A stretch of 64,000 nt of DNA. It comes from Gammaproteobacteria bacterium (GTDB lineage: Bacteria > Pseudomonadota > Gammaproteobacteria > Nitrococcales > Nitrococcaceae). The stretch's first letter is position 1. Each line of letters opens with the position of its first letter. The notes beneath the pieces were generated by a model that did not search any database, was not told the DNA's origin, and saw only the letters and a list, made by a program, of their open reading frames with translations. The translations under genes were made by a program, and so were the position numbers. This document shows, piece by piece, positions 4,877-8,663 of the stretch. Location of the stretch: assembly GCA_030433275.1 (NCBI GenBank), contig JAUILK010000004.1, positions 1 through 64,000 of the forward strand, written 5' to 3'.

Positions 4877-5013
4877 AAATAGCGCCTCAGCCCGCTATCC
4901 ATGGTCGTTGGAGGCCGCGCACGGGCGTTGAGGTTGGTGTTATGATCATCCTCCCGGCGGGCCCAGTCCCCGGGGTTTCAGTGGGTGTAACCTTGAGGAC
5001 CGATTGCGTCGTA

Positions 5014-7710
5014 ATGAGCGAGCAATGCCCCCCGCTAATCTTGGTGGACGGCTCGTCCTATCTGTACCGTGCCTATCATGCCTTGCCGCCGTTGACCACC
5101 CCCGCCGGCGTGCCGACCGGGGCGATATACGGCGTAGTGAATATGCTGCGCAAGTTGCTCGCCGAGTACGACACGGCATACTTCGGCGTGGTATTTGACG
5201 CCAAGGGCAAAACCTTTCGTGACGAGCTTTTCGAAGCCTATAAGGCCAACCGGGCGCCCATGCCGGATGAACTGCGCGTGCAGCTCGAGCCGCTCAAGCA
5301 GATCGTTTGTGCCTTGGGATTACCGCTGATCGAGATCGCAGGGGTGGAGGCCGACGATGTCATAGGCACGCTTGCGGTACGCGCCAGCGCGGCTGGGCTG
5401 CGCACCATAATCGCAACGGGCGACAAGGATATGGCCCAGATCGTCAACGACGATGTGGTGTTACTTAACACCATGTCCGGGACGTGGCTCGATACGGCCG
5501 CGGTGCGGGACAAATTCGGCGTGCCACCCGAGCGGATGGTCGACTATCTGGCGTTGGTAGGGGATACCGTCGATAACATTCCCGGCGTGCCAAGAGTGGG
5601 TCCCAAGACTGCGGCCAAGTGGCTTGGACATTATGGCTCGCTGGATGCCCTGCTGGAGCGTGTCGATGAAATCAAGGGCAAAGTCGGGGAGAGCCTGCGC
5701 GAGCATACCGAGCAGCTCGCGCTGTCGCGGAAGCTCGCGACCATTCGCTGCGATTTGGATCTGAACCTGGACCCAAAGGCTATGCGGCTTCGGGCGCCGG
5801 ATGTTGAGACTTTGGCGCAGCTCTATCGGCATCATGCATTCAGCAGCTGGCTCTCCCAGCTCAGTGACGAGTATCCTGGTGCCGGCGACCCGCAGCAGGC
5901 CGCCGTCCACTATGAAACCGTGGTTGAGGAGGCCGGCCTGCAGCAATGGTTGCAGCGTCTGGCATGCGCCGAAGTGTTCGCTTTCGATCTGGAGACAACC
6001 AGCCTGAATTATATGGATGCGGAGATCGTAGGCGTTTCCTTCGCGGTGGAGCCGGCGCATGCCGCCTATGTACCGGTGGCGCACACCGGAGCCGAAGTCC
6101 CCCCACAGCTTGAGCGCCGGCACGTTCTGGAGCAGTTTAGGCCATTGTTGGAGGACCCACATCGCGCCAAGCTGGGCCAGAATCTGAAATACGACATGAG
6201 CGTATTGGCGCATTATGGTATTGAGCTGCGTGGGGTACGTTTCGATACGATGCTCGAGTCTTACATGCTTGATTCCACCGCGACCCGGCACGACATGGAC
6301 TCGCTTGCGCTCAAATATCTGGGCCACCGGACCATCAAATTCGAGGACGTGGCTGGCAAAGGCGCCAAGCAGCTTACCTTCGATCAGGTGGCAATCGAGC
6401 GTGCCACCGAGTATGCGGCGGAAGACGCCGATATTACCCTGCGTTTGCACCAGGCGCTCTATCCGCGGTTGCGGCAGTTACCGGGGCCCGAGCGAGTCTT
6501 CCATACCATCGAAATGCCTCTGCTTCCCGTTCTCTCGCGCATGGAGCGTACCGGCGTGCTGGTAAGTCGCGAGCTTCTCGCCGCGCAGAGCACGGAGCTC
6601 GCGCAGCGCTTGGTCGAGATCGAGACTGCGGTACACCGTGCGGCGGGTTGCGAGTTCAACCTCAGCTCACCCAAGCAGATCCAGGCCATACTCTATGATC
6701 GGCAGGGGTTGCCGGTGCTGGCCAAGACGCCCAAAGGGGCACCCTCCACGGCCGAGCCGGTGCTTCAGGAACTTGCCGTGACGTACCCGCTGCCGCGAAT
6801 GATCCTCGAGCATCGGGCGCTCGCGAAGCTCAAATCGACCTACACAGACAAACTGCCGTTGTTGATCCATCCCCGCACCGGACGTGTGCACACCTCCTAT
6901 CAGCAGGCGGTGGCCGCTACCGGGCGGTTGTCGTCCTCCGACCCCAACCTGCAGAATATTCCGGTGCGCTCCACGGAAGGGCGGCGCATCCGGCGGGGGT
7001 TCATCGCGCGGCAAGGCTATCGGCTGCTGGCGGCGGATTACTCGCAGGTGGAGCTGCGCATCATGGCCCATTTCTCGGGCGACGAAGGCCTGCGCCGTGC
7101 CTTTGCCGCAGGCGAGGACATTCACAGGGCCACCGCCGCCGAGGTTTTTGCAACCACATTGGAGCAGGTCACTGCTGAACAACGGCGTGCTGCGAAGGCC
7201 ATCAATTTCGGTCTGATCTATGGCATGTCCGCCTACGGCCTGGCGCGTCAGCTCGGCATTGAGCGCGATGCGGCGCAGCATTACGTAGACCGTTATTTCG
7301 AACGCTATCCGGGCGTCAAGGCTTTTATGGAACGCACTCGACACGAAGCGCGCGAGCGCCAGTATGTGGAGACGATTTTCGGCCGGCGCCTCTATCTCCC
7401 GGAAATCAACACGAGCAACCTGCAACGTCGGCAGGCTGCTGAGCGCACCGCCATCAACGCCCCCATGCAGGGCAGTGCGGCCGATATCATCAAACGGGCG
7501 ATGATTCGGGTGGATCAGTGGCTGCAGAGCGAATGCGAGGACGTATTTATGGTACTTCAGGTGCACGATGAGCTGGTATTCGAGGTGCCGGCGCCCGATG
7601 TGCAGTCCGTGGCTGAACGCATCCGTGCGTTCATGGTCGGCGCGGTGGAGCTCAGCGTGCCGTTGACCGTCGAAGCCGGTTGGGGGAAGAACTGGGAAGA
7701 AGCCCACTGA
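5014..7710 (+). CDS. polA: DNA polymerase I
   Basis: An 898-residue repair and Okazaki-processing polymerase with all three activities. The N-terminal 5' nuclease opens with LILVDGSSYLYRAYHALPPLTTPAG and carries EADDVIGTLA, ATGDKDMAQ and GDTVDNIPGVPRVGPKTAAKWL. The 3'-5' proofreading domain keeps its acidic residues (FAFDLETTSLNYMDAEIVG, GQNLKYDMSVL, YAAEDADITLRLH), so proofreading is predicted to be active. The polymerase domain has DYSQVELRIMAHFSGD, RRAAKAINFGLIYGMS (O-helix) and VHDELVFEVP. The open frame extends 24 codons upstream, but ATG 5014 directly precedes the conserved start. It is followed by a structured non-coding gap and then engB on the other strand, the same layout as polA-spf-yihA in E. 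coli. Confidence 0.97.
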   Translation: MSEQCPPLILVDGSSYLYRAYHALPPLTTPAGVPTGAIYGVVNMLRKLLAEYDTAYFGVVFDAKGKTFRDELFEAYKANRAPMPDELRVQLEPLKQIVCALGLPLIEIAGVEADDVIGTLAVRASAAGLRTIIATGDKDMAQIVNDDVVLLNTMSGTWLDTAAVRDKFGVPPERMVDYLALVGDTVDNIPGVPRVGPKTAAKWLGHYGSLDALLERVDEIKGKVGESLREHTEQLALSRKLATIRCDLDLNLDPKAMRLRAPDVETLAQLYRHHAFSSWLSQLSDEYPGAGDPQQAAVHYETVVEEAGLQQWLQRLACAEVFAFDLETTSLNYMDAEIVGVSFAVEPAHAAYVPVAHTGAEVPPQLERRHVLEQFRPLLEDPHRAKLGQNLKYDMSVLAHYGIELRGVRFDTMLESYMLDSTATRHDMDSLALKYLGHRTIKFEDVAGKGAKQLTFDQVAIERATEYAAEDADITLRLHQALYPRLRQLPGPERVFHTIEMPLLPVLSRMERTGVLVSRELLAAQSTELAQRLVEIETAVHRAAGCEFNLSSPKQIQAILYDRQGLPVLAKTPKGAPSTAEPVLQELAVTYPLPRMILEHRALAKLKSTYTDKLPLLIHPRTGRVHTSYQQAVAATGRLSSSDPNLQNIPVRSTEGRRIRRGFIARQGYRLLAADYSQVELRIMAHFSGDEGLRRAFAAGEDIHRATAAEVFATTLEQVTAEQRRAAKAINFGLIYGMSAYGLARQLGIERDAAQHYVDRYFERYPGVKAFMERTRHEARERQYVETIFGRRLYLPEINTSNLQRRQAAERTAINAPMQGSAADIIKRAMIRVDQWLQSECEDVFMVLQVHDELVFEVPAPDVQSVAERIRAFMVGAVELSVPLTVEAGWGKNWEEAH

Positions 7711-7791: not shown

Positions 7792-7818
7792 GAACTTTTC
7801 TAAATGTTCCCTGTCATT
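7792..7818 (+). promoter_or_regulatory. Candidate sigma-E/AlgU-like promoter for the RNA between polA and engB
   Basis: GAACTT at 7792-7797 matches the -35 consensus of the RpoE/AlgU (extracytoplasmic function) class. Sixteen bases later, TCATT at 7814-7818 is a partial match to the -10 (TCTGA/TCTAA). Transcription would begin near 7824-7826, just ahead of the first hairpin. A sigma-70-like TACATA overlaps at 7818-7823 without a good -35 box, so the promoter class is not settled. Confidence 0.4.
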
Positions 7819-7824
7819 ACATAT

Positions 7825-7953
7825 AGCGCCAGTGCCCGGCGCGGCCCGCTAATCCCTCCTCTTTGCAGCGGGCCAATAGCCTGGCCTTGCCCCCAAGGCC
7901 AGGTGTTTTGCCCCGGGAGACCACCCCCCATGGTTCCCGGGGCCTTTTCTTGC
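7825..7953 (+). ncRNA. Candidate small regulatory RNA at the spf/ErsA locus (polA-engB gap)
   Basis: Three consecutive hairpins fill the gap. Hairpin 1 pairs GGCCCGCT (7843-7850) with AGCGGGCC (7867-7874) around a 16-base loop holding CCCTCCTCTTT, which is complementary to Shine-Dalgarno sequences. Hairpin 2 pairs CCTGGCCTTG (7880-7889) with CAAGGCCAGG (7894-7903) around CCCC. Hairpin 3 pairs CCCCGGGA (7911-7918) with TCCCGGGG (7935-7942), with inner CCA/TGG pairs, then CCTTTTCTT, a rho-independent terminator. E. coli Spot 42 (spf) and Pseudomonas ErsA occupy this same position, downstream of and co-directional with polA and facing engB. ErsA is transcribed by an AlgU-class sigma factor. That this is a small RNA, and its ends, are inferred from structure and synteny; there is no transcript evidence. 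Confidence 0.6.
7911..7950 (+). terminator. Rho-independent terminator after polA / the small RNA candidate
   Basis: A perfect 8-bp GC-rich stem (CCCCGGGA / TCCCGGGG), extended by CCA/TGG, with a C-rich loop, is followed by CCTTTTCTT on the plus strand. It would end the candidate small RNA and any polA read-through. engB, on the other strand, ends 33 bases further on. Confidence 0.65.
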
Positions 7954-7982: not shown

Positions 7983-8663
7983 TTAAGAACCCGGCTGCTT
8001 GGCTGCGGTTTCCAGCAGCAGCCACGTGTCGAGCTTACCGTGGGCCGTTTCGATGCCCCGCGCTCGCAGTGCGGAGAATAGCTGAACACTGGTATCGGGG
8101 TGATCCCGTGCCAGATGTTCCTCGGTGTACCGCAGGGCTTGTGCCGCCGGTCCCTGTTTGAGCTTGTCAGCTTTGGTCAATAGCACGTGCACCGGTAAAC
8201 CCACCGCTCCACACCAAGCGAGCAGCTGTTGGTCGAGGGCGGTCAGCGGGTGCCGAACGTCCATGATCAGCATCAATCCGCGCAGGGATCGCCGCTGCTG
8301 CAAATACTCCGGCAGTGCCCGCTGCCAGTGGGCGCGAATCGCCTGCGGTAGTTTAGCGAAGCCATAGCCCGGCAAATCGATTAGATAACGTTGGTCACTA
8401 ACCGGGAAGACGTTAATTTGCTGTGTTCGACCGGGTGTTTTGCTGGTGCGGGCCAGCGCTTTTTGTCCGGTGAGGGCGTTAATGGCACTCGATTTCCCGG
8501 CATTGGAGCGCCCCGCAAAGGCGACCTCGCGGCCAGTGTCCGGGGGAAGGTGGCGCAGATCCGGTGCGCCGAGCAGGAATCGGGCCTTGCGGTAAATTGC
8601 GTTCATCCGCTTTACTCGCTGCGCGGGAAGCGCGTTCGGGAGCTGGCTGGTGTCGTCTAGCAT
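7983..8663 (-). CDS. engB: EngB/YihA (YsxC), ribosome-assembly GTPase
   Basis: A small GTPase needed for maturation of the large ribosomal subunit. All G motifs are present: G1 [10 protein letters not shown]2 [11 protein letters not shown]3 DLPGYG and G4 TKADKL, with a late SALRARGIE near the G5 position. DIRHP is present as DVRHPL. From the ATG at 8661-8663 ([17 protein letters not shown]) it has 226 residues. The ATG at 8604-8606 ([22 protein letters not shown]) would give 207, nearer the family's usual length, so the first 19 residues are doubtful. It is divergent from cytochrome c4 and faces polA, the common gammaproteobacterial order. Confidence 0.93.

Follow-up and report, generated by a model that had tools for sequence, protein, structure and literature searches.

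A probable sigma-E-dependent small RNA gene between polA and engB in Nitrococcus belongs to a wider gammaproteobacterial family that includes ErsA, sX13 and anti-hemB

Introduction

The small RNA sX13 (RF02232), encoded downstream of polA in the Xanthomonadaceae, was reported as exclusive to that family, and loop mutants and GFP fusions showed that its C-rich loops target G-rich motifs close to start codons (PMC3771888). Loop 2 of sX13 represses hfq, in which a GGGG motif is found at positions +9-12 of the gene (PMC3771888). The authors of that study asked whether the polA locus elsewhere encodes such RNAs, and the polA-locus RNAs of alphaproteobacteria were described as structurally alike with no sequence similarity (PMC3771888). 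In Pseudomonas, the position between polA and engB is occupied by ErsA (Pseudomon-1, RF01719), which is strictly sigma-22 dependent (PMC7565897), requires Hfq and works through an unstructured U-rich stretch (PMC8575079). Two further RNAs enter the comparison: anti-hemB (RF02837) of Burkholderia, named ncS04 in B. cenocepacia, for which no function was found in the literature searched, and Spot 42 (spf) of E. coli, which lies between polA and yihA/engB. Rfam contains no clan joining sX13, ErsA and anti-hemB, and our literature search found no paper linking sX13 with ErsA. The usual view is that a given small RNA does not extend beyond closely related bacteria.

Here we describe a predicted RNA gene from the genome of a Nitrococcus, a nitrite-oxidising bacterium (assembly GCA_030433275.1), located in a 64,000-nt stretch of contig JAUILK010000004.1 that is referred to below as the window. 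Positions 7823-7948 probably encode a trans-acting sigma-E small RNA, a loop-pairing repressor belonging to a class-wide polA-engB family together with ErsA, sX13 and anti-hemB.

Results and Discussion

Gene Anatomy

A preliminary description of this DNA had proposed that the polA-engB locus holds a gene for a small RNA, and the two genes do flank a strongly folding RNA with its own promoter and terminator. The RNA gene (7823-7948, about 130 nt) lies in the gap between convergent polA and engB, with the following features:

4942-7710, + strand: polA, DNA polymerase I, the upstream neighbour on the same strand as the RNA
7792-7797, + strand: -35 element GAACTT of a sigma-E-class promoter, pattern conserved in relatives
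7813-7818, + strand: -10 element GTCATT, separated from the -35 element by 15 nt
7823-7826, + strand: likely transcription start, placed from promoter spacing and the position of the -10 element
7826-7842, + strand: hairpin A, GCGCC-AGUGCCC-GGCGC, near-invariant in the order and covarying in the class
7843-7874, + strand: hairpin B, 8-bp stem and 16-nt loop AAUCCCUCCUCUUUGC, anti-Shine-Dalgarno-like
7879-7904, + strand: hairpin C, 11-bp stem and C-rich loop GCCCCCAA, matching sX13 loop 2
7910-7948, + strand: terminator, a C-rich-loop hairpin (stem 7910-7943) followed by a U tract (7945-7948), matching sX13 loop 3
7983-8612, - strand: engB/yihA GTPase, the convergent downstream neighbour, start codon approximate

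The predicted fold had an energy of -72.5 kcal/mol (z -5.75), equalled by none of 200 shuffled sequences. Three hairpins had been claimed initially; four were found, the 5' one (7826-7842) having been overlooked. The loop CCCTCCTCTTT (7852-7864) is present and open, with a mean unpaired probability of 0.96, and its earlier designation as an anti-Shine-Dalgarno loop agrees with the C-rich, accessible character of the hairpin B loop. The two promoter elements proposed at the outset were likewise confirmed: GAACTT occupies 7792-7797 and TCATT, after a 16-nt spacer, occupies 7814-7818. In the sigma-E reading they become GAACTT-N15-GTCATT.

Conservation and Distribution

The DNA of this locus was recognisable in 31 of 59 relatives. 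An alignment for the order was built from 29 copies, every one from the polA neighbourhood, and in it 22 of 33 base pairs had changed on both sides with pairing kept, which none of 500 shuffles equalled; when partners were slid by one base, paired cells fell from 92 to less than 50 percent. Covarying stems in relatives had been set beforehand as the test on which the proposal could fail, and these 22 pairs supply them. In a class-wide alignment of 62 members (A2), 32 of 33 pairs covaried, including all five of hairpin A, a count that leans towards the model because this alignment was fitted to a covariance model. The upstream hairpins A, B and C are all conserved, two of them covarying within the order and all three in the class. 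Within the order, both stem and loop of hairpin A are near-invariant (window 7826-7842, loci L001-L030), beyond what pairing demands.

Two covariance models were used for genome searches: R1, derived from the order alignment, and R2, in which the R1 set was joined by the more distant members in A2 and whose training included neither sX13 nor ErsA. R1 matched 49 of the 54 genomes of the order and 73 of the 274 of the class, and R2 matched 187 of 369 sampled gammaproteobacterial genomes (E up to 0.001). The exact hairpin A block has many chance matches in GC-rich coding DNA and was kept only in company with polA, the promoter or the family fold. Synteny was nearly complete, with 76 of the 77 copies whose flanks were inspected adjoining polA or engB and the remaining one situated at a contig end. 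Among these 77 copies, 56 have the same orientation as polA and nine the opposite.

The whole RNA gene is inverted together with its promoter in the polA-engB gap of nine loci (L021, L023, L025, L026, L028, L029, L030, L181 and L270), Aquisalimonas and Methylonatrum among them. Tandem copies also occur: four at L174 (G223:C33), two at L177 (G024:C7) and three at L134 and L036 (Alkalilimnicola ehrlichii), and Aquisalimonas lutea carries an off-locus copy (L074). Of the extra or tandem copies inspected, most carry their own sigma-E-like promoter. One family member (L217) adjoins a cytochrome c4-like gene, with neither polA nor engB within the flank inspected; in the window, a cytochrome c4-like gene likewise comes after engB.

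Promoter and RpoE

The promoter pattern GAAC-N16..19-GT[CT] was scored directly upstream of the RNA and was present in 28 of 29 relatives within the order and at 21 of 32 class-wide loci, about one third of the latter having no exact match. Shuffled upstream DNA gave an expectation of 0.6 occurrences per set, and control stretches gave 0-2. GAACTT-N15/16-GTC, the sigma-E form, was the commonest upstream of the RNA; the E. coli sigma-E promoter has the form GGAACTT-N15-GTCTAA. An ECF promoter of the class that drives ErsA had been suggested for this locus, and this suggestion holds in that the pattern is conserved and an ErsA locus (L224) carries GAACTT-N16-GTCATA.

The Nitrococcus genome encodes RpoE (298 bits), followed by the gene of an RseA_N protein, and upstream of this rpoE-rseA operon lies GAACTA-N15-GTCTAT, similar to the small RNA promoter. 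A second RpoE paralogue (L240, G000:C15:3902-4465; 282 bits, above the TIGR02939 cut-off) has no obvious RseA adjoining it within the stretch inspected. The strict promoter pattern was not enriched across the Nitrococcus genome (13 sites versus 11 for the reversed pattern), so the assignment rests on conservation of the promoter and not on a regulon, and we make no claim about an RpoE regulon. In the short gaps of Spiribacter-like genomes (L006-L009, L012, L013, L016-L018, L022), promoter and gene end share bases, the polA stop codon running into the -35 GAACT (TGAACTT).

Between convergent genes, a structured segment of this kind might be nothing other than an elaborate bidirectional terminator that yields no separate transcript, and the last hairpin with its U tract does make a good terminator for such a place. 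However, three more hairpins upstream of it are conserved and covarying, with loops that are C-rich across the family, a conserved promoter lies directly upstream, the unit was inverted along with that promoter at nine loci, tandem and off-locus copies of the RNA exist, and its relatives sX13 (PMC3771888) and ErsA (PMC7565897) are known transcripts. We regard a terminator without a transcript as highly improbable, and a genuine gene for a small RNA, with a promoter of the sigma-E class, as likely.

Relationship to sX13, ErsA, anti-hemB and Spot 42

No Rfam family matched anywhere in the window at the gathering score. In a relaxed scan, every match fell below its cut-off: sX13 came first (39.8 bits, full length), followed by ErsA (32.4 bits), 6C (30.6 bits, the E-value of 0.02 being weak) and anti-hemB (25.9 bits). 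The RNA had been introduced as having no clear primary similarity to known RNAs; such similarity does exist, at scores below the Rfam cut-offs for sX13 (50 bits), Pseudomon-1/ErsA (50 bits) and anti-hemB (49.5 bits). Since the window RNA falls below the cut-offs of all three, it is a variant within a wider family.

As a control, our own models were run on 489 kb of unrelated GC-rich DNA, picked to contain the hairpin A 17-mer. The control maximum was 19.7 bits for R2, whereas R1 reached up to 31.9 bits and scored 18 bits for the 17-mer alone; because of this noise, the claim across families was based on R2, whose controls stayed under 20 bits. The window RNA itself (7818-7948) is a full-length, four-hairpin match at 127.7 bits with R1 and 108 bits with R2, as a training member of both. 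On known loci, R1 gave 38-43 bits for sX13 and 27 bits for one ErsA locus. In blind genome searches, R2 recovered sX13 genes at 48-68 bits, and within the Pseudomonas family it matched nine genomes, with scores of 32-39 bits. Two of these nine matches were examined (L278 and L280), and each overlaps an Rfam ErsA match, of 107 bits in the first and 127 bits in the second. Two R1 matches at polA-engB loci (L172 and L175) exceed the anti-hemB cut-off of RF02837, and R2 retrieves further anti-hemB genes, a retrieval that is less independent because RF02837 had served to locate some of the loci used in training. Alphaproteobacterial R2 matches (30-37 bits) were set aside as unproven, and the one examined (L281) is not at polA. 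ncS35 of Burkholderia was also considered as a relative and rejected, as it lies at a different locus and no link to it was found.

The likeness to sX13 extends beyond score. Both RNAs are located downstream of polA and present C-rich-loop hairpins in the same order with the terminator last, and the window RNA shares the sX13 trait of three stem-loops with C-rich apical loops. They differ in that the 5' region of sX13 is described as unstructured (PMC3771888), whereas the window RNA has a hairpin there, and in that the sX13 promoter fits the sigma-E form poorly, unlike that of the window RNA. With ErsA, the window RNA shares the polA-engB position, a similar length, a C-rich terminator loop and a sigma-E/sigma-22 promoter of the form GAACTT-N15/16-GTCAT; the place that hairpin B takes in the window RNA is held in ErsA by an unstructured U-rich domain, between the first and second stem-loops. 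That same hairpin B (CCCGC..CUCCCU..GCGGG), along with the terminator, is found in anti-hemB. Because ErsA needs Hfq and its U-rich stretch and sX13 has no need for Hfq, mechanisms differ inside the family.

The initial comparison had named Spot 42 along with ErsA. The ErsA half of it stood, both in position and in promoter, while with Spot 42 the resemblance proved to be positional. It is doubtful that the window RNA is a Spot 42 orthologue drifted beyond recognition, as the common place between polA and engB might suggest: neither R1 nor R2 found a match in the E. coli spf region, and the relaxed Rfam scan of the window listed no Spot 42, which leaves the position as the point in common.

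Convergence on C-rich loops carried by GC-rich stems is possible, and the alphaproteobacterial RNAs that resemble one another in structure and not in sequence (PMC3771888) would be compatible with several independent origins of such RNAs at the polA-engB locus. Against this stand the scores that a full-length model of ordered hairpins gave for sX13 (48-68 bits) and ErsA (32-39 bits), neither of which was in training, the promoter held in common with ErsA, and the existence of intermediate forms (e.g., L273 and L275). Independent origins therefore appear very unlikely to us. The window RNA is a new branch of a wider, previously unrecognised family whose members have been named piecemeal as ErsA, sX13 and anti-hemB. 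It had also been proposed that the promoter of the locus was kept while the RNA itself was rebuilt, and this has to be revised, since the four-hairpin architecture with C-rich loops is itself class-wide and the models retrieve sX13, ErsA and anti-hemB. In most of the class, the locus, the promoter and the architecture have stayed together; the exceptions are that an open stretch replaces hairpin B in ErsA and that sX13 has little promoter likeness.

Potential Role and Candidate Target

Across the family, stems change while the loops stay C-rich in nearly all members: of 62 members, 53 have CUCC in the loop of hairpin B, 57 have CCCC in that of hairpin C and 51 have CCCC in that of the terminator. 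The hairpin B loop of the window RNA could form 12 pairs with AAGAGGAGGGAU and nine with AAAGGAGGUGAU. By analogy with sX13, the C-rich loops likely repress translation through G-rich ribosome-binding regions under envelope stress. In the mechanism that we propose, envelope stress would release RpoE from RseA, the freed RpoE would transcribe the small RNA, and C-rich loops held on rigid stems would base-pair to G-rich sequence in or close to ribosome-binding sites, lowering translation of the mRNAs concerned. The RNA would thus be the repressing arm for a sigma factor able only to activate, and in this it would work like MicA and RybB of enterobacteria. Those two sigma-E-dependent RNAs have other loci and structures, and they pair by single-stranded 5' ends with Hfq.

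Alternatively, the main action of the RNA might be to hold a protein (Hfq or a different RNA-binding protein) and not to base-pair. In favour of this are its high degree of structure, the presence of an hfq gene in the Nitrococcus genome and, within the order, the invariance of the hairpin A block GCGCCAGUGCCCGGCGC in both stem and loop, as could be expected of a protein site. However, hairpin A varies outside the order, the most widely conserved letters are those of the C-rich loops, with no GGA or AU-rich site, and sX13 acts via its C-rich loops (PMC3771888). We consider a mainly protein-holding role unlikely and favour repression by loop pairing.

Among possible targets, hfq is the most likely conserved one and our best candidate; we do not put it forward as a result. 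The Nitrococcus hfq gene reads ATGGCCAAGGGGCAA, which places GGGG at nucleotides 9-12 (codons 3-4), the same place as in the sX13 target. This GGGG would pair with the loop of hairpin C; UUGCCCC of that hairpin is complementary to GGGGCAA of hfq. The Gly codon at the hfq start was GGG in 38 of 48 genomes with the RNA and in 8 of 21 without it, counts that ignore phylogeny and base composition, and GGG made up 25 of 200 other hfq Gly codons in RNA-bearing genomes. A stricter codon search gave a weaker signal (33 of 41 with the RNA versus 7 of 13 without, p 0.075), and the excess of GGG is present also where no RNA was detected.

A more tentative proposal, to which we give somewhat less than even weight, is that a single ancestral sigma-E-controlled RNA, anchored between polA and engB in the gammaproteobacteria (taken broadly, with the former betaproteobacteria included), was the source of ErsA, sX13, anti-hemB and the many unnamed copies, and that the oldest function it has retained is repression of hfq via GGGG at codons 3-4. 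If so, envelope stress would tune the cell's main RNA chaperone. For roughly half of the gammaproteobacterial genomes sampled, the question of whether the polA locus elsewhere encodes such RNAs (PMC3771888) has a positive answer, and with this distribution and a common stress promoter, results on ErsA, sX13 and anti-hemB become readable as those of one family. Falsifiable predictions follow for many non-model bacteria, namely sigma-E dependence of the RNA and hfq as its target. The Gly codon at the start of hfq is mostly GGG in L282 (G000:C34) and about 70 other genomes.
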